Source of the DNA: Enterobacter sp. CC120223-11
GTDB lineage: Bacteria > Pseudomonadota > Gammaproteobacteria > Enterobacterales > Enterobacteriaceae
Direction of reading: 5' to 3'
Length of the DNA: 64,000 nt
Assembly: GCF_900215375.1 (NCBI RefSeq)
Contig: NZ_OBEF01000006.1
Coordinates: 186,001-250,000, forward strand
Positions 18,370-25,694 of the stretch are shown in pieces. Every line of letters starts with the position of its first letter. Position 1 is the first letter of the stretch. Below the pieces are notes generated by a model that searched no databases, was not told the origin of the DNA, and saw only the letters and a program-made list of their open reading frames with translations. Both the position numbers and the translations under genes were made by a program.

Positions 18370-19428
18370 TTAACTCTCCATCGCAACGCGGGCAGCATGC
18401 CGCGTTGCGTTACTCACCGTGCCTGCGTCCTGTATTTTCCCCTGCAGCAGCACGTTGAGCACTGATGCCTCCTGGCGGTTAAGGCGATTTTGCAGCAAAT
18501 GCACCGCTTCGACGCCAAGCTCCCGGCAGGGTACGGTGATGCTGGTAACGGAGTGCGACAGCTCGTTATCCAGACGCCAGACGAAATCCGTGATCAGCAA
18601 CGAAATATCTTCCGGCACCCTGAGGCCATGACGTTCAAGCACCTTCTGTACCCCCAGCGTCATCGTCGTACTTCCAGGGAAAATCACCTGCGGCCACTGG
18701 TCGCGCGGCGTTTCCGTCAGCCACTTCTCCAGCGCCTGCTCCGACTCCTCCGCCGTAAAGCCTTCGGTGACGATCACCTCTTTTTGCGCATTGAACGGCA
18801 CGTGATAGCGCCGGTAGGCTTCTTTGATGCCGTCCAGCCGCGCATAAAGGGTTTCACGCCTGAGCGTGGTCATGCACAGCACGCGCCGATGCCCTTGCTC
18901 AAACAGATAACGCATGGCGCTAAAGCCAATGGCACGATGGTCGGGTGACACGGCGTCCAGAATACGTTCTTTATCGTTGGTGTTAATTAACACGCAGGGT
19001 TTATTCAGCGTTTGCGCCAGCTTCAATACGGTGGGGTCGTCGGTGCCGATAATAATGATCGCATTGATATTCTTATTACTGGCCTTCTCCAGAAAAACTT
19101 TAATATCGGCGTCCTGCTCCTCCAGCCCGCAAAAGGTCAGATACACGTCGTGCGGTTCAATCGCATCGGCAATGCCGCGGGTCACTTCCTGATAGAAAAT
19201 ATCTCCCCGCGCCGTAAAGGTTCTGGCTGGCGCGAAAACCGCTATGCCATTAATCAACAGCCGTCCGCTGGCCAGTTCGTCCAGCACGCCGAGCTTTCTG
19301 GCGCAGCGCACAATGGCGTCACGCGCCTTTTCGCTGGTGTACGACTTGCCGCTAAGCACCCGGGAAACGGTGCTGACGGAGTAGCCCGTCGCGGCGGCAA
19401 TCTGGTCCATTTTAAGCTTGCCGGACAT
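18370..19428 (-). CDS. LacI-family transcriptional regulator of the oxidoreductase cassette
   Basis: A 352-residue LacI/GalR-type repressor from the ATG at 19428, which has GAGG 7 bases upstream. The helix-turn-helix is at residues 4-30 (LKMDQIAAATGYSVSTVSRVLSGKSYTS), followed by a hinge-like stretch and a sugar-binding domain with GIAVFAPARTF, NKNINAIIIIG, RYLFEQGHRRVLCMTT and VPEDISLLITDF. The effector is unknown but by family is probably a sugar or derivative. It is divergently transcribed from the first oxidoreductase gene, with palindromes in the 191-bp gap, so it most likely controls that operon. It is absent from this locus in E. coli K-12. Confidence 0.9.
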   Translation of the reverse strand: MSGKLKMDQIAAATGYSVSTVSRVLSGKSYTSEKARDAIVRCARKLGVLDELASGRLLINGIAVFAPARTFTARGDIFYQEVTRGIADAIEPHDVYLTFCGLEEQDADIKVFLEKASNKNINAIIIIGTDDPTVLKLAQTLNKPCVLINTNDKERILDAVSPDHRAIGFSAMRYLFEQGHRRVLCMTTLRRETLYARLDGIKEAYRRYHVPFNAQKEVIVTEGFTAEESEQALEKWLTETPRDQWPQVIFPGSTTMTLGVQKVLERHGLRVPEDISLLITDFVWRLDNELSHSVTSITVPCRELGVEAVHLLQNRLNRQEASVLNVLLQGKIQDAGTVSNATRHAARVAMES

Positions 19429-19454
19429 GATGTGACCTCGCTCGCATTCGTTTT

Positions 19455-19470
19455 CTGCAATTTTTTGCAG
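19455..19470. promoter_or_regulatory. Palindrome in the regulator leader
   Basis: The sequence CTGCAA-TTTT-TTGCAG is a perfect 6-bp inverted repeat 27-42 bases upstream of the LacI-type start codon. It could be an autoregulatory operator or an mRNA hairpin. Confidence 0.4.
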
Positions 19471-19517
19471 ATGCAGTGAACTGATTTTAAAACACAATTT
19501 CATCCACTACGGAAAAT

Positions 19518-19619: not shown

Positions 19620-20774
19620 ATGAAAACAGTCCGGTTCGGCATTATTGGTGTAGGAAATATTGGTACCGTTCACGCACGTTATTTACTAGCGGGAACGGTC
19701 AAAGAGGCCCGCCTGACCGCGGTTTGCGATATTGATGAGCAAAAGCACGACGCGATTCGTGAGCTTGTGGGGGAGAAGATCGAAATCTTCACCCACGCCC
19801 GCGATCTGCTACAAAGCGGACTTATCGACGCGGTAATTGTCGCCACGCCACACTATTCACATCCTGAGCTGTCGATGCTGGCGATGCGCAGCGGCATCCA
19901 CACGCTGTGTGAAAAACCCGCCGGGGTTTATACCGCGCAGGTTCAGGCGATGAACGCCTGCGCCCGCGAGTGCGACGTCGTGTTTGGCATCATGTACAAC
20001 CAGCGCCCTAACCCGCTGTATCAGAAAGTGAAAGATCTGATCGACAGCGGCGAGCTCGGCGAAATTCGCCGCTCCAACTGGATTATCACCAACTGGTACC
20101 GCTCGCAAAGCTACTACAACTCCGGCGGCTGGCGCGCCACATGGAAAGGCGAAGGCGGCGGCGTGCTGCTCAATCAAGACCCTCATCAGCTCGATCTCTG
20201 GCAGTGGCTGGTGGGCATGCCGGTGCGTCTGCGCGCGTTCTGCCAGTTCGGCAAACATCGTCAGATTGAAGTCGAAGATGAAGTCACCGCCTACGCCGAA
20301 TACGCCAACGGCGCGACGGGCGTGTTCATCACCACCGTCGCTGAAACACCGGGCACCAATCGTCTGGAAATTGCCGGGTCGCGCGGGAAGGTAGTCGTCG
20401 AAGAAGGCCGCCTGCGCTACTGGCGACTGCGTGAATCGGAAGACGACTTCAACGCCCGCTGGCAAAACGGCTTTGGCGAGCCGGAGTGCTGGGAGGTGAC
20501 CATCCCCGTCGCGCCGGAATGCAGCGAACACCACGTCATCACCGAAAACTTTTGCGCCGCCGTGCTGCGCGGCACACCGCTGATTGCGCCGGGCCTCGAA
20601 GGCATTCGCGGCCTCACCCTCTCCAACGCCATGCACCTCTCCACCTGGACCGACGGCTGGGTCGATTTGCCGTTCGACGAAGAGCGTTTCAAGCAGCTGC
20701 TGGATGAACGTATCGCCAGCTCAGTGGAAAAGCAGGCCGGGAGCCGCACGCTCGACGCTTCCGGAACCTGGTAA
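19620..20774 (+). CDS. Gfo/Idh/MocA-family oxidoreductase 1 of the cassette
   Basis: A 384-residue NAD(P)-dependent sugar oxidoreductase. The Rossmann motif GVGNIG is at residues 10-15, the conserved EKP (cofactor/substrate lysine) at 98-100, and the second-domain active-site segment GGGVLLNQDPHQLD at 179-192, with H189 as likely catalytic base and N185 where many relatives have Asp. The family oxidises or reduces a hydroxyl of sugars, inositols or glycosides; the substrate here is unknown. It is the first gene of a tight operon, with AAGG 6 bases before the ATG and a 12-bp gap to the next gene. A C-terminal ~30-residue polar tail is unusual. Confidence 0.88.
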   Translation: MKTVRFGIIGVGNIGTVHARYLLAGTVKEARLTAVCDIDEQKHDAIRELVGEKIEIFTHARDLLQSGLIDAVIVATPHYSHPELSMLAMRSGIHTLCEKPAGVYTAQVQAMNACARECDVVFGIMYNQRPNPLYQKVKDLIDSGELGEIRRSNWIITNWYRSQSYYNSGGWRATWKGEGGGVLLNQDPHQLDLWQWLVGMPVRLRAFCQFGKHRQIEVEDEVTAYAEYANGATGVFITTVAETPGTNRLEIAGSRGKVVVEEGRLRYWRLRESEDDFNARWQNGFGEPECWEVTIPVAPECSEHHVITENFCAAVLRGTPLIAPGLEGIRGLTLSNAMHLSTWTDGWVDLPFDEERFKQLLDERIASSVEKQAGSRTLDASGTW

Positions 20775-20786
20775 TAAGGAGCCTCT

Positions 20787-21971
20787 ATGTTACGTGTCGC
20801 TATCGTGGGAACCGGGAACATCTCGCACAACCACATTCAGGGCTATCTGGAGATGAGCGAGCGCTGCCAGATTGTCGCGCTCGTTGATATCTATCCGGAA
20901 AAGGCCGAAGAGAAAAAAACGCGTTACGCACTGCGCGAAGCGCGAGTCTACAGCAGCCACCAGCAGATGCTGGAACAGGAGCCTGACGTCGATATCGTCG
21001 ACGTCTGCACGCCGCCGTATGTTCACGCTGAAATCAGCATTGATGCGCTGCACGCAGGCAAGCACGTGTTGTGTGAGAAACCGATGGCGGCTTCTCTCGA
21101 GGAGTGCGACGCGATGATCGCCGCGCAGCAAGCCAGCGGCAAAACGCTGTCGATCATCGCCCAGAACCGCTTCACCGATGCGTTCTGGCGGCTGAAAGCC
21201 GCGGTGGATTCTGGCCTGGCAGGGAAAATCTGCCACGCGCAGGTCGACTCCTTCTGGTGGCGCGGCCACTGCTATTACGATCTGTGGTGGCGCGGCACCT
21301 GGGAAAAAGAGGGTGGCGGCTGCACGCTCAACCACGCCGTCCATCACATCGACGCCGTGCAGTGGATGCTCGGCTTCCCCAGTGAAGTGGTGGCAATGAT
21401 GAGTAATGTCGCCCACGACAACGCCGAAGTGGAAGATCTGAGCGCCGCTATTTTTCGCTATCCATCGGGCGCAATCACGCAGCTCACCGCCTCCGTGGTG
21501 CATCACGGCGAAGATCAGAAGATGGTGATTCAGGGCGAAAAGGCGTGCATCTCCGCCCCGTGGGACGTGTTTGCCAGCCAGTCGGCGGACAACGGTTTCC
21601 CGCAGGATGCGCATAACACGGCGCTGGAAGACCAGCTACAAACGCTGTTTACCGGCACGCCAAAGCTGCGCTGGACGCTGCACGCCGGGCAAATCGACAA
21701 CTTTATCCGCGCGATTGAAACGCAAACCACGCCGCTGGTCGATGGCCTGCAAGGCAAGCGCTCGCTGGAGATCATCACCGCGATTTATAAGTCCGCCATC
21801 ACGCGCTCGGTCGTGACGCTGCCCATTGCTCCTGACGACGCCTTTTACCGCACCGGCGGCCTCACAGCCCGCGCCCCACGCTTTCACGAAAAATCCTCAT
21901 CGGTCGCCAACTTCAGCGAAGTGGGCGCGATCCCGCTCGGCAAAAATTTCGATACAGGAGCCACATCATGA
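20787..21971 (+). CDS. Gfo/Idh/MocA-family oxidoreductase 2 of the cassette
   Basis: A 394-residue paralogue of gene 1 but clearly divergent. The Rossmann motif GTGNIS is at residues 8-13, CEKP near 95, and the active-site segment EGGGCTLNHAVHHIDAVQWML follows an aromatic stretch (FWWRGHCYYDLWWRGTW) that probably lines a sugar pocket. The C-terminal ~45 residues (DDAFYRTGGLTARAPRFHEK...) extend beyond the standard fold. AAGGAG stands 8 bases before the start. Its stop overlaps the next start (ATGA), indicating translational coupling. Specific substrate unknown. Confidence 0.87.
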   Translation: MLRVAIVGTGNISHNHIQGYLEMSERCQIVALVDIYPEKAEEKKTRYALREARVYSSHQQMLEQEPDVDIVDVCTPPYVHAEISIDALHAGKHVLCEKPMAASLEECDAMIAAQQASGKTLSIIAQNRFTDAFWRLKAAVDSGLAGKICHAQVDSFWWRGHCYYDLWWRGTWEKEGGGCTLNHAVHHIDAVQWMLGFPSEVVAMMSNVAHDNAEVEDLSAAIFRYPSGAITQLTASVVHHGEDQKMVIQGEKACISAPWDVFASQSADNGFPQDAHNTALEDQLQTLFTGTPKLRWTLHAGQIDNFIRAIETQTTPLVDGLQGKRSLEIITAIYKSAITRSVVTLPIAPDDAFYRTGGLTARAPRFHEKSSSVANFSEVGAIPLGKNFDTGATS

Positions 21972-23035
21972 GCAAAAACGACGGTATGAATTACGCCCCG
22001 ACCGGCAAGCCTCAGCTAGTAGTACAACCCGGCGAGTTTGTGTTTGCCGCCGCCGCCCTCGATCACGGTCATATCTACGGGATGTGCAACGGCCTGCTGG
22101 AGGCGGGCGCGGAGCTGAAATGGGTGTGGGATCCGGACCCGGCGAAAATCGATAAATTTGTGCAGCAGTATCCGCAGGTGCAGGTGGCTGATTCGCTCGA
22201 AACTTTGCTCAGCGATCCGCAGGTAAAGCTGATTGCTGGCGCAGGGGTGCCTTCTGAGCGCTGCCCGCTGGGACTGAAAGTGATGGCGGCAGGGAAAGAT
22301 TACTTCGTGGATAAAGCGCCGTTGACCACCCTCGAACAGCTGGAAGAGGCCAGAGCGATGGTGGCGAAAACCGGGCGCAAATACGCGGTCTATTACAGCG
22401 AGCGTCTGCACGTGGAGAGCGCCGTTTTCGCCGGGCAGCTGGTGAAACAGGGTGCCATTGGCCAGGTCATCCAGACCCTCGGCACCGGGCCACATCGCGA
22501 AGGTGAAGGCCGCCCGGGCTGGTTCTATGAGAAACGCTATTTTGGCGGCATCCTCTGCGACATCGGCAGCCATCAGATTGAACAGTTCCTGTTCTACACC
22601 GGCAATGAAGAGGCGCGCATCGTCGCCAGCCAGACCCGCAACGTCAGCCATCCGCAGTATCCGCAGTTTGAAGACTTCGGTGACGCCATGCTGGCCGGGG
22701 CCAACGGCGCAACGGGCTATTTCCGCTGCGACTGGTTCACGCCTTCAGGCCTCTCCACCTGGGGCGATGGCCGCCTGACGCTGCTCGGCACCGAAGGCTA
22801 TATCGAAATTCGCAAGTACGTCGATCTCACGCACGGTGAGCAGGACGTGGTGTATCTGGTTAATAAGGAAGGAGAACAGCGCTTCCCGGTGGCTGGAAAA
22901 GTGGGCTTCCCGTTCTTCGGCGAGCTGATTAAGGACTGCCTGAACCGCACCGAAAACGCGATGACCCAGGCCCATGCCTTCAAAGCCGCCGAGCTGTGCG
23001 TCAAAGCGCAAATGCTGGCTAACGCAGCGGTTTAA
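21968..23035 (+). CDS. Divergent Gfo/Idh/MocA-like protein with altered nucleotide motif
   Basis: A 355-residue member of the same fold with several departures. Where GxGxxG is expected, residues 27-39 read AAAALDHGHIYGM. The EKP motif is DKAP (115-118), keeping the lysine. The active-site segment is FGGILCDIGSHQIEQF, with D198 and H202 in the classical D-x-x-x-H spacing, whereas the other three genes have Asn at that position. The first ~20 residues are a non-conserved extension. It may bind NAD differently, or act as a lyase/hydratase on an oxidised sugar rather than as a simple dehydrogenase (inference). It overlaps gene 2 by 4 bp and is 10 bp from gene 4. Confidence 0.85.
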   Translation: MSKNDGMNYAPTGKPQLVVQPGEFVFAAAALDHGHIYGMCNGLLEAGAELKWVWDPDPAKIDKFVQQYPQVQVADSLETLLSDPQVKLIAGAGVPSERCPLGLKVMAAGKDYFVDKAPLTTLEQLEEARAMVAKTGRKYAVYYSERLHVESAVFAGQLVKQGAIGQVIQTLGTGPHREGEGRPGWFYEKRYFGGILCDIGSHQIEQFLFYTGNEEARIVASQTRNVSHPQYPQFEDFGDAMLAGANGATGYFRCDWFTPSGLSTWGDGRLTLLGTEGYIEIRKYVDLTHGEQDVVYLVNKEGEQRFPVAGKVGFPFFGELIKDCLNRTENAMTQAHAFKAAELCVKAQMLANAAV

Positions 23036-23045
23036 GGAGGCACGG

Positions 23046-24068
23046 ATGAGAACGCTGAATGCCGCCATTATTGGCTGCGGGGCTATCCACGCCTGTCACG
23101 TTGAGGCGCTGCACCAGACGCCCGACGTGACGCTGCGGGCCATTGCGGATATCGACGTTGACAAAGGCCAGCGGCTGGCGTCGGAGTACGGCTGCCACTT
23201 TTATAGCGATTATCAGGAGATGCTACAGGACGCCACCATTGACGTGGTGCATATCTGTACGCCGCATCATCTGCACAAGCCAATGATCCTAGCCGCGCTG
23301 GCCGCCGGGAAGCAGGTGTTTTGCGAAAAACCCGTCGGGATGAACATGGCGGAAGTCGCGGAGATTGGCGAAGCGGAAAACAGGGCCCGCGGGCGCGTCG
23401 GCATCTGCTATCAAAACCGCCTGAACCCCACCAGTCAGGCACTGCGGTCGCTGTTGAACGAGCAGGTGCTCGGCAACCTGCTCAGCATCAATGCGTTCCT
23501 CACCTGGTCGCGTAAAGCGCCCTATTACAGCGAAAGTCCGTGGCGTGGACGCCACGCCACCGAAGGCGGCAGCCTGCTGATTAATCAGGCCATTCATACG
23601 CTGGATCTGCTGCAGTGGCTTGGCGGCGGCGTGTCTCGGCTCAAGGGCGTGGTGGACTGCGCAAGGCCTGCAGATGTCATCGACACCGAAGACACCGCAA
23701 TGGCAACGCTGACCTTCTCCGGCGGTGCGACGGGCCTGTTTTTCGCCAGCAACAATCACACCCGTGACGCCCCGTTACAGCTTGATATCCAGTGCGAGCG
23801 CGGCGAGTTGCAGCTTCGCGACAATACCCTCTGGCGCATCACCGACGGCAAACGGGTGGCAATCGCCTGCGACGAAACGCCCTACAGCCACAGCAAAAGC
23901 TACTGGGGAATCGGCCATCTTCAGGCCATTAATCAGTTCTACATTGCCGTGCGCAGCGGCACCTTCGAAGGCCTAACCGGCCTTCACGAGGCGGCAAAAT
24001 CCCTGCGTCTCGTGGAGGCGATCTATCGCTCGTCACAATTACGACAATGGATTTCGTTGCCCGAATAA
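23046..24068 (+). CDS. Gfo/Idh/MocA-family oxidoreductase 4 of the cassette
   Basis: A 340-residue canonical-length member. GCGAIH at residues 10-15 is the Rossmann motif, CEKP lies near residue 97, and the catalytic stretch is TEGGSLLINQAIHTLDLLQWL. The ATG at 23046 is preferred over an in-frame upstream ATG inside gene 3 because AAGGAGG lies about 8 bases upstream and MRTLNAAIIGCG begins with the Rossmann strand. It is closest to gene 1 in its active-site segment. Reaction and substrate are unknown beyond the family's sugar hydroxyl/ketone chemistry. An 81-bp gap then leads to the transporter gene. Confidence 0.88.
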   Translation: MRTLNAAIIGCGAIHACHVEALHQTPDVTLRAIADIDVDKGQRLASEYGCHFYSDYQEMLQDATIDVVHICTPHHLHKPMILAALAAGKQVFCEKPVGMNMAEVAEIGEAENRARGRVGICYQNRLNPTSQALRSLLNEQVLGNLLSINAFLTWSRKAPYYSESPWRGRHATEGGSLLINQAIHTLDLLQWLGGGVSRLKGVVDCARPADVIDTEDTAMATLTFSGGATGLFFASNNHTRDAPLQLDIQCERGELQLRDNTLWRITDGKRVAIACDETPYSHSKSYWGIGHLQAINQFYIAVRSGTFEGLTGLHEAAKSLRLVEAIYRSSQLRQWISLPE

Positions 24069-24149: not shown

Positions 24150-25694
24150 ATGGCTAAACCTACGGAACGCAGAGTGGGTTACGGCGTGGCGATTGGCTAC
24201 GGCGTGACCGATCTTTTTGGCGGGGGTGCATTTGCGGTTATCGGCACCTGGTTACTGTTTTTCTATACGACCTACTGTGGCCTGTCAGTCCTGGAGGCAG
24301 GCTCCATCTTCGCAATTGCCCGCGTCATTGACGCTATCCTGAGCCCGGTAATGGGCTACGTGACGGACAACTTCGGTCATACCTGGCTCGGTCGTAAGTT
24401 TGGCCGCCGCCGCTTTTTCCTGCTGCTGAGCGCTCCGCTGATGTTCCTGTACGCGCTGGTATGGGTCACCGACATGAGCTACTGGTACTATCTCGGCACT
24501 TACCTGTCCATCGAGCTCCTGTCGGCAATGGTGCTGGTGCCGTGGGAAACCCTGGCCGCGGAAATGACCAACCGCTTCAGTGAACGCACCCGCCTTTCCG
24601 GCGTGCGCATGATGTGCTCGCAGTTTGGCGGCTTCCTGGCGGTGTCGGTGCCTGGCATCATTATGCAGTTCACCGGCAAGGACAATTCACTCACCTACAC
24701 CCTGACAGGCGCTATTTTTGCCCTGATTTTCTGTATTGCCGTCTTTATCACCTGGGCGGTGACCTGGGAGGCGAAAGACGTGCGGGAAGAGTATGCATTC
24801 ACGCCTGACACCCAGCGTCGCTCAGGCCTGCTCAATCACCTGAAGTATCTGGTCATCGACCTTTTCTCTTCCTTTAAAATCAAGGCGTTCCGCCAGCACA
24901 TCATTATCTATATCTGTTCCTTCACCGCGATGGATGTGTTCGGCTCCGTGTTCACCTATTACGTGGTTTACGCCTTAGGGCGTGATGCCGCTGCGGTGTC
25001 GGGGCTGCTGACCGTCGCCGCCTTTGTCTCAGTGCCCGGCACCTTTGGCTTTATGATGCTGATGAACAAACTCAACATGACACCGTCTTCGGCGCTCCGC
25101 CTCTCTTACGGCTGTATTTTTGCCGTACTGGCGTTCTTGTTTGTGGTTTACGTCAACGACATTGCAGTGCCCACGCTGCTCTTTTCCGCCGTCTTTGTGC
25201 TGCTGGGCGCGGCCCGCGCCGGGCTCTATTACATCCCCTGGAATATCTACAGCTTTATTCCCGACGTTGATGAGATGGTCACCTGCCAGCGTCGCGAAGG
25301 CATTTTCGCGGGCGTGATGGTGCTGACACGCAAAAGCACCGTGGCGCTGGCCATCATGCTCATCGGTATCGTTCTGGAAGAGAGTGGTTTTGTGAAAGGT
25401 GGCGGTAGCCAGCCTGTTAGCGCCCTGCACGCCATTATCGGCCTGATGATTTTTGCCACCGGAGCGCTGCTGGCCGTGAGCTTCTGGATGACCTACAAGT
25501 TCAAACTTACCCAGACTTCGCACAAGACGCTGATCAAAGAAATTGCCCGCCGCAAGCTGGGCGGCAACCCTGAAGACTGTGATGAAAATACGCGTCTGGT
25601 TATCAAAGATCTGACCGGCTTCGCTTACAACGAGGTGTGGAACGCCGGACCGGCAAAAGGCAAAAATGCCGCTGCGCTGGCCCCTGAAAGTTAA
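24150..25694 (+). CDS. GPH-type (MelB/YihO-like) sugar:cation symporter
   Basis: A 514-residue, roughly 12-helix transporter. The N-terminus has the glycoside-pentoside-hexuronide family features: VGYGVAIGYGVTDLFGGGAF, then RVIDAILSPVMGYVTDN (the Asp residues that coordinate cation and sugar in MelB) and GRKFGRRRFFLLLSAP. A long cytoplasmic C-terminal tail (~50 residues) follows the last helix. The family imports melibiose, glucuronides, sulfoquinovose and other glycosides with H+ or Na+, so it probably brings the cassette substrate into the cytoplasm. The ATG at 24150 is chosen because MAKPTERRVGYG begins the conserved region. A terminator follows ~50 bp downstream. Confidence 0.87.
   Translation: MAKPTERRVGYGVAIGYGVTDLFGGGAFAVIGTWLLFFYTTYCGLSVLEAGSIFAIARVIDAILSPVMGYVTDNFGHTWLGRKFGRRRFFLLLSAPLMFLYALVWVTDMSYWYYLGTYLSIELLSAMVLVPWETLAAEMTNRFSERTRLSGVRMMCSQFGGFLAVSVPGIIMQFTGKDNSLTYTLTGAIFALIFCIAVFITWAVTWEAKDVREEYAFTPDTQRRSGLLNHLKYLVIDLFSSFKIKAFRQHIIIYICSFTAMDVFGSVFTYYVVYALGRDAAAVSGLLTVAAFVSVPGTFGFMMLMNKLNMTPSSALRLSYGCIFAVLAFLFVVYVNDIAVPTLLFSAVFVLLGAARAGLYYIPWNIYSFIPDVDEMVTCQRREGIFAGVMVLTRKSTVALAIMLIGIVLEESGFVKGGGSQPVSALHAIIGLMIFATGALLAVSFWMTYKFKLTQTSHKTLIKEIARRKLGGNPEDCDENTRLVIKDLTGFAYNEVWNAGPAKGKNAAALAPES

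Follow-up and report, generated by a model that had tools for sequence, protein, structure and literature searches.

The third of four consecutive oxidoreductase genes in one operon-like run of Enterobacter sp. CC120223-11 raises the question of what a protein of the Gfo/Idh/MocA fold does once the glycine motif of its cofactor site is gone. The run lies in a 64,000-nucleotide stretch of contig NZ_OBEF01000006.1 (positions 186,001 to 250,000, hereafter the window), and the gene in question, GfoC, is an open reading frame (ORF) at 21968-23035 on the forward strand that encodes 355 amino acids (aa) from an ATG start. By fold, GfoC would be called an oxidoreductase dependent on nicotinamide adenine dinucleotide (NAD). 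From sequence comparison, we tentatively favor the reading that this Gfo/Idh/MocA-fold protein no longer uses NAD or its phosphate, NAD(P), in the customary manner and performs proton-transfer chemistry on a 3-keto-glycoside, providing the elimination/hydration step for the probable dehydrogenases GfoA and GfoB encoded before it; here the loss of NAD(P), the type of reaction, the parts played by individual residues and the substrate are all points that we infer.

GfoC residues 27-39 read AAAALDHGHIYGM, and the aligned place in its paralogues reads GVGNIG in GfoA, GTGNIS in GfoB and GCGAIH in GfoD, the gene that follows GfoC. Residues 115-118 read DKAP where the three paralogues keep EKP, and GfoC carries D198-I-G-S-H202 where the paralogues have Asn four residues before the His. 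The first-pass annotation had claimed each of these differences, and an alignment of 90 GfoC, 44 GfoA, 33 GfoB and 10 GfoD rows that includes the proteins of the window (loci L027 and L055 hold the same GfoC protein) bears them out. Specifically, the column of the second Gly is a gap in 90/90 GfoC rows and Gly in 44/44 GfoA, 32/33 GfoB and 10/10 GfoD rows. The loss aligns as a three-residue deletion with a register shift, not as three substitutions, and the first Gly column of GfoC holds Ala in 64, Ser in 7 and a retained Gly in 16 of the 90 rows. The match of PF01408 to GfoC begins only at position 25 of the profile, and the other eight of the nine above-cut-off matches in the genome start at position 1 or 2. 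Regular-expression matches in 4 GfoC rows fall in other parts of the ORF and were set aside after column-wise alignment. The features of GfoC are given below in window coordinates, with counts from the 90 rows and from a more diverse set of 57 that includes distant Pseudomonadota members.

21968..23035, + strand: GfoC (P0001), Gfo/Idh/MocA fold without GxGxxG (profiles, alignments, model, structure matches)
21980..22024, + strand: N-terminal arm, residues 5-19, consensus DGMNYAPxGKPxPVV (GMNYAP exact in 66/90 rows)
22046..22072, + strand: altered and shortened glycine loop, residues 27-35, AAAALDHGH (H33 and H35 in 57/57)
22130..22132, + strand: Asp55 at the end of β2, kept (D in 83/90; 45/57 in the more diverse set)
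22259..22261, + strand: Arg98 at the His of TPxxxH (90/90; 57/57)
22310..22318, + strand: D115-K116-A117 at the EKP place (D 90/90, K 90/90, A/T/S 83/90)
22400..22402, + strand: Glu145 at the Gln/Asn of NQR-type motifs, proposed C2 base (90/90; role from the GH188 Tyr136 spacing)
22559..22573, + strand: D198-x-x-x-H202 (both residues 90/90)

The other NAD-contact motifs change together with the loop. The TP of TPxxxH is mostly Ala (81 of 90 rows) and Ile/Val (88 of 90), and the His that follows is Arg98 in all 90. The Glu of EKP becomes Asp in every GfoC row, with D-K-A/T/S in 83/90 and D-K-P in 7/90, and the Gln/Asn of NQR-type motifs is replaced by Glu145 throughout, while Lys116, Asp198 and His202 are invariant. 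In the more diverse set H33, H35, R98, K116, E145, D198 and H202 are each present in 57/57 rows. The altered motif pattern is thus a trait of the GfoC family, and a tree built by a quick method groups all 15 GfoC rows sampled in a single branch, with a Shimodaira-Hasegawa-like approximate likelihood ratio (SH-aLRT) value of 100, which fits a single, ancestral change. A sequencing error or gene decay behind the loop loss is rejected, since the frame is open and the same pattern occurs in 90 rows. Asp198, which had been taken as a sign of novelty, is set aside as a special feature as well: Asp is common at the DxxxH place, occurring in 6nor, in 3gdo and in Gfo proteins of this genome, among them L156, so that Asp198 is probably the ordinary state and the Asn of the paralogues the unusual one.

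The fold itself is retained. PF22725 (67.1 bits) and PF02894 (33.3 bits) both match GfoC above cut-off, and the C-terminal domain, the two-domain architecture and the catalytic Lys and His of the Gfo/Idh/MocA superfamily are all present. Among the marks of an NAD(P)-dependent member, GxGxxG and EKP are missing and the β2 acidic residue is present; because GfoC fails the glycine-loop test, it is not classed as an NAD(P)-dependent Gfo member. An AlphaFold2 model built from 57 rows (mean predicted local distance difference test score, pLDDT, 92.4; predicted template modelling score, pTM, 0.91) contains a strand at residues 25-31, a three-residue loop formed by D32-H33-G34, and a helix that begins at H35. 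Of the 50 structure matches shown, 2P2S (Z 49.5, 61% identity) and 3U3X (Z 49.5, 42%) stand apart from the remainder (Z 29.6-36.4), which includes NAD-dependent sulfoquinovosidases and a levoglucosan dehydrogenase; the NAD enzymes score about 30-33. This shared fold with NAD enzymes is no evidence of function. NAD(P)-dependent Gfo/Idh/MocA enzymes such as LgdA, inositol dehydrogenase, DgpA and WlbA possess the fold and the Lys/His catalytic set of GfoC but differ from it in the glycine loop, TPxxxH and EKP, all of which are altered in GfoC.

2P2S from Erwinia carotovora atroseptica and 3U3X from Sinorhizobium meliloti, both titled putative oxidoreductase without a stated function, are members of the GfoC family (61-62% and 42% identical to GfoC, root-mean-square deviation about 1 Å), and in neither is GxGxxG present at the corresponding position. 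In genome G167 a GfoC relative of the 2p2s type (L024:1501-2487, L051) is broken by one in-frame TGA and may be a pseudogene. The N-terminal arm of GfoC (window 21980-22024) is a conserved, proline-containing segment that rhizobial plasmid and 2p2s-type relatives lack; there is no room for it in 2P2S, and the 3U3X chain enters the alignment only after its first 24 residues. The arm may contact another subunit. Residues 1-14 of the model have pLDDT below 50, and this low confidence in a monomer, combined with the conservation of the arm and the frequent pairing with GfoA or GfoB described below, would suit a role without catalysis, as a subunit or sensor that uses the arm to bind a dehydrogenase or keto-sugar. 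We consider such a role highly improbable, as the catalytic-type residues are invariant and the arm is missing from the rhizobial plasmid and 2p2s-type members.

Under the favored reading of GfoC as an eliminase/hydratase, a GPH symporter would import a glycoside, perhaps a glucuronide, and GfoA and/or GfoB, with NAD bound, would oxidize its C3. Lys116 and His202 of GfoC would polarize the C3 ketone, the acidic C2 proton would be removed by GfoC, with Glu145 proposed as the base, and GfoC would expel the aglycone from C1 and add water. The 3-keto sugar would be reduced by GfoA/GfoB or GfoD, and the freed uronate would enter UxaC/UxuA/UxuB metabolism. Overall, this would amount to a GH4/GH109/GH188-type redox glycosidase split over two proteins, in which GfoC would keep the keto-stabilizing half of the site and give up the NAD half. 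The broader proposition, that a widespread Gfo/Idh/MocA branch dropped NAD to become a 3-keto-glycoside (perhaps glucuronide) eliminase/hydratase, with both parts of a two-protein redox glycosidase thereby coming from one fold, is rather unlikely as it stands.

Redox glycosidases of the Gfo fold oxidize C3 and act on C2; once the aglycone has left and water has been added, they reduce the product (PMC10755693). In ArSqgA, Lys107 and His193 contact the C3-OH, Glu189 the C4-OH, Tyr136 the C2-OH and His321 the C1-OH (PMC10755693). The 29 residues from Lys116 to Glu145 in GfoC equal the interval from Lys107 to Tyr136 in GH188, a match of spacing and not of residue-by-residue alignment. The GH188 NAD-dependent sulfoquinovosidase SqgA, like GH109, has the same fold as GfoC (Z 32.9 to 8qc2), but SqgA completes the whole oxidize-eliminate-hydrate-reduce cycle in one NAD-holding protein, whereas the canonical NAD motifs are missing from GfoC, which is accompanied by a separate dehydrogenase. 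Redox glycosidases hold a bound catalytic NAD, and the NAD motifs are lost in the GfoC alignment.

The DgpA-type enzyme D3dgpA co-purifies with NAD(H) in an almost equimolar amount and cycles by a ping-pong mechanism in either redox direction (PMC11239390), so that a two-protein system could close the redox cycle. The levoglucosan pathway LgdA-LgdB1-LgdB2-LgdC follows the same operon logic of a dehydrogenase with an eliminase/hydratase (PMC7676230), but its eliminase/hydratases LgdB1 and LgdB2 are PF01261 proteins (PMC10066097), and relatives of AP2a and AP2b, two PF01261 types found at other GfoC loci, occur at 0/20 enteric GfoC regions. The 3-keto-glycoside β-eliminases AtOGE and PuCGE catalyze the reaction proposed for GfoC (PMC10628242) with a triosephosphate isomerase (TIM) barrel and Mn2+, in contrast to the Rossmann-type Gfo fold of GfoC, which has no PF01261 match and so falls outside the OGE/CGE/LgdB1-type TIM barrels.

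The proposed partners are probable sugar 3-dehydrogenases, judged by their closest solved relatives. For GfoA this is 8tdi, titled P2B11 Glucuronide-3-dehydrogenase (342 bits, E 3.6e-101), which by PDB name and alignment, the two grounds of comparison, represents the dehydrogenase partner type like GfoA and not the GfoC type. For GfoB the closest entries are 3q2i and 3q2k (154 and 148 bits; 3q2k is titled WlbA dehydrogenase), followed by DgpA 7xr9 (114 bits). GfoA, GfoB, GfoC, GfoD and a GPH-type symporter form an operon-like run, with a divergent LacI-type regulator and a 4-base overlap between the GfoB stop and the GfoC ATG. A LacI relative is present at 18/20 enteric GfoC regions.

18370..19503, - strand: LacI-family regulator (P0006), divergent (PF00356 33.9 bits, PF13377 60.1 bits)
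19620..20774, + strand: GfoA (P0002), intact GVGNIG, probable glycoside/glucuronide 3-dehydrogenase (PF01408 77 bits; 8tdi)
20787..21971, + strand: GfoB (P0003), GTGNIS, probable sugar 3-dehydrogenase (PF01408 106 bits; 3q2i/3q2k, 7xr9)
23046..24068, + strand: GfoD (P0004), GCGAIH, Gfo/Idh/MocA oxidoreductase (PF01408 99 bits; 3q2i 113 bits)
24150..25694, + strand: GPH-type sugar/glycoside:cation symporter (P0005), probable importer (PF13347 149 bits; NCBIfam gph 132 bits, below the 231 cut-off)

The association extends to whole genomes. Among 198 Enterobacteriaceae-type genomes (GfoC at E up to 1e-20, GfoA and GfoB at E up to 1e-70), GfoC is found in 23, GfoA in 18 and GfoB in 17, and every genome with GfoA or GfoB carries GfoC. 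GfoA or GfoB is present in 21/23 GfoC-positive versus 0/175 GfoC-negative genomes (p 2e-26, in a test that, like the one that follows, treats related genomes as independent and uses sets read off tables). A second sample comprises 104 genomes of the Paenibacillus-containing family around G581, the genome of Paenibacillus locus L061 (GfoC at 1e-100, GfoA at 1e-125), with GfoC in 93 and GfoA in 94; 91 have both, 8 have neither, 2 have GfoC alone and 3 have GfoA alone (p 3e-8), and since the best 18-19 candidates per genome were scored, absences are soft where Gfo genes are many. One GfoA-without-GfoC genome, G632, carries a broken GfoC beside GfoA. At L190 (genome G613), GfoA is missing from a gene context in which it immediately precedes GfoC at other loci; at 1e-125 no GfoA is found genome-wide among the 18 of 113 candidates scored.

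Locus by locus, the same pairing recurs. The 80 named loci are the best 80 of at least 586 stretches encoding a GfoC relative and belong mostly to Paenibacillus and relatives; their putative operons rest on mechanical ORFs, and 19/80 loci are shorter than 16 kb, 6 of these among the 19 GfoB-only loci. A Gfo paralogue lies in the putative operon of GfoC at 62/80 loci, and plain GfoB-GfoC pairs account for 13/80. In the 18 genomes without GfoA or GfoB near the sampled GfoC, GfoA occurs elsewhere in 17 at 1e-60, a count that by itself says little because GfoA is common in the Paenibacillus-containing family (94/104). At the rhizobial/rhodobacteral plasmid loci examined, a Gfo gene adjoins GfoC in 7/7 cases (plasmid matches listed: 25 of 171 records).

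Around GfoC, GfoB and the two PF01261 types are mutually exclusive. Relatives of AP2a and AP2b, the two types that these counts cover, occur at 27/39 GfoA-only, 0/19 GfoB-only, 0/4 GfoA-plus-GfoB and 0/18 remaining loci; within Paenibacillus the split is 18/26 GfoA-only versus 0/7 GfoB-only (p 0.0015), and the way the sample was built puts GfoC in every class. In a Pfam scan of 82/103 unclassified 200-420 aa ORFs at GfoB-only loci, PF01261 is not among the 25 most populated families, one-member families being mostly unlisted so that a single gene could hide, and a Pfam census of 61/134 unclassified neighbor ORFs contains two PF01261 members, one of which is a UxuA protein. The pattern hints that GfoB may replace GfoA together with a PF01261 enzyme; the window operon holds both GfoA and GfoB. 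No solved relative was found by phmmer for one AP2a protein or for the enteric GH5-like protein described below.

The mutual exclusion (0/19 versus 27/39) would also suit a non-redox epimerase acting at C2 or C4 of a 3-keto-glycoside between two 3-dehydrogenases, so that one glycoside is converted into another. Epimerization between two 3-dehydrogenases is reportedly the logic of E. coli YcjQ-YcjR-YcjS, and the window operon likewise places two 3-dehydrogenase-like genes before GfoC and GfoD after it. The altered cofactor site and the kept enolizing residues fit an epimerase equally, and the GH5-like gene of some enteric regions would then perform the cleavage. We nevertheless regard it as improbable: the logic wants two dehydrogenases, and many of the 80 loci have one type (39 GfoA-only, 19 GfoB-only), while hexuronate-catabolic neighbors suggest release of a free uronate.

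Several observations weigh against the preferred eliminase/hydratase reading. The β2 Asp is the usual adenine-ribose contact, and at position 55 GfoC retains D in 83/90 and E in 2/90 rows. DKP occurs in two of four other own-genome Gfo proteins compared, a fifth (L161) having yielded no ORF, which renders the EKP feature soft; the Glu-to-Asp change alone is rejected as a mark of a new cofactor mode, and the rarer change is that of Pro to Ala/Thr/Ser (83/90). Two of the 198 enteric genomes carry a 2p2s-like GfoC (61% identical) and no close GfoA or GfoB, their best GfoA matches being weak (1.6e-15 and 1.0e-12). PF01261 proteins stand at 27/80 GfoC loci, where GfoC could fill a terminal-reductase slot. 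L188 and L189 hold GfoA, AraC and AP2a without GfoC, and the seemingly close genomes of L192-L194 read GfoA-AraC-GfoC-AP2a, so that GfoC is dispensable in the former. UxaC or UxuA is found by blast at only 6/80 loci. Finally, a GH5/cellulase-like gene of about 355 aa, whose resemblance to GH5 cellulases is weak at most, lies next to the symporter in 5/20 enteric regions, possibly encoding an ordinary hydrolase for the same glycoside; it is absent from the window.

L036:9877-10935: GH5-like gene, enteric region
L037:3848-4906, - strand: GH5-like gene, no GH5 match
L043:11153-12217: GH5-like gene, 17 bits, below the cut-off of 23.5
L045:2759-3820, - strand: GH5-like gene, enteric region
L048:10156-11223: GH5-like gene, 28.4 bits, above the cut-off of 23.5

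A serious rival reading takes GfoC as a still NAD(P)(H)-dependent oxidoreductase in which an atypical loop holds the cofactor and which serves as a terminal, LgdC-like 3-keto-sugar reductase, with PF01261 proteins, GfoB or a hydrolase performing the cleavage. The kept β2 Asp (83/90) and the Lys/Asp/His set (90/90) agree with a reductase, as does the order UxuA-AP2a-GfoA-AP2b-GfoC at L128, which resembles the levoglucosan set of two Gfo and two PF01261 proteins (PMC7676230). The absence of GfoC beside GfoA and AP2a at L188/L189 likewise recalls LgdC, which lies near only 151/265 LgdA genes (PMC10066097). Set against this are the shortened glycine loop and the replaced TPxxxH His in 90/90 rows, and the lack of a consistent adenosine-side residue in distant Pseudomonadota members, which carry T/A/P in place of Asp55. 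Moreover, if the role of GfoC were confined to the last reduction, no recognized cleaving enzyme or eliminase would be at hand in the plain GfoB-GfoC pairs, unless GfoB cleaves. We judge a reductase role a possible though doubtful explanation. As a separate observation, L188/L189 versus L192-L194 constitute a natural experiment on the need for GfoC.

The idea in the first-pass annotation that GfoC differs in cofactor mode, or else performs a non-redox keto-sugar step such as a lyase or hydratase reaction, holds in part. It gains from NAD-contact motifs that are changed together and fixed family-wide while Lys, Asp and His are kept, from the operon and genome tie to probable sugar 3-dehydrogenases, and from hexuronate enzymes near some copies; it loses from the retained β2 Asp.

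Substrate hints derive from those neighbors. At L056 the gene immediately after GfoB-GfoC encodes a glucuronate isomerase, mannonate dehydratases are encoded near GfoC at L068, L115 and L128, and at L050 a fructuronate reductase (929 bits versus a cut-off of 603) follows GfoA-GfoC with one HupE/UreJ-like gene between. Mannonate-oxidoreductase-like short-chain dehydrogenases/reductases (SDRs) occur below cut-off at L068, L082 and L128; at L192 and L194 blast is the only evidence for them. By blast, neither UxaC nor UxuA is found at the 20 enteric regions. Hexuronate neighbors are a minority and have no random-region control, so that glucuronide as the substrate is a lead. The lactate-racemase-type lar genes beside GfoA/GfoC at L050 look like a neighboring operon and are not used as evidence. 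At L082:8001-13050, GfoC stands beside a nickel-pincer-cofactor isomerase (NPN group 22), the mannonate-oxidoreductase-like SDR and LarE, a set that could possibly represent an aldonate epimerization step. A protein of 430-440 aa without a Pfam match at 1e-8 is encoded near GfoA-GfoC and the mannonate-oxidoreductase-like SDR at L192:12572-13873 (- strand) and L194:3221-4537 (+ strand); its early MHTH motif suggests an amidohydrolase or uronate isomerase type.

GfoC relatives are carried by Paenibacillus, Lachnospiraceae, rhizobia and enteric bacteria, a range that would bear on plant or host glycoside use. In the literature, no paper tied to the GfoC family was found, subscription papers being mostly outside the search. 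If GfoC is indeed the cleavage partner of glycoside 3-dehydrogenases, this would provide a function for 2P2S and 3U3X, explain how two-gene operons without a recognized eliminase cut glycosides, and represent an oxidoreductase fold recruited for lyase chemistry. The operon DNA (19620-23035) has no match in E. coli genomes. The run is flanked by msrA-like and ytfL-like genes, in a neighborhood whose names (tamA, tamB, msrA, ytfL, ytfJ, cysQ, cpdB) we assume from E. coli gene order rather than from a family search. Among the 20 enteric regions, the run lies beside relatives of the same flanking genes in 13, and GfoC is located elsewhere in 7.

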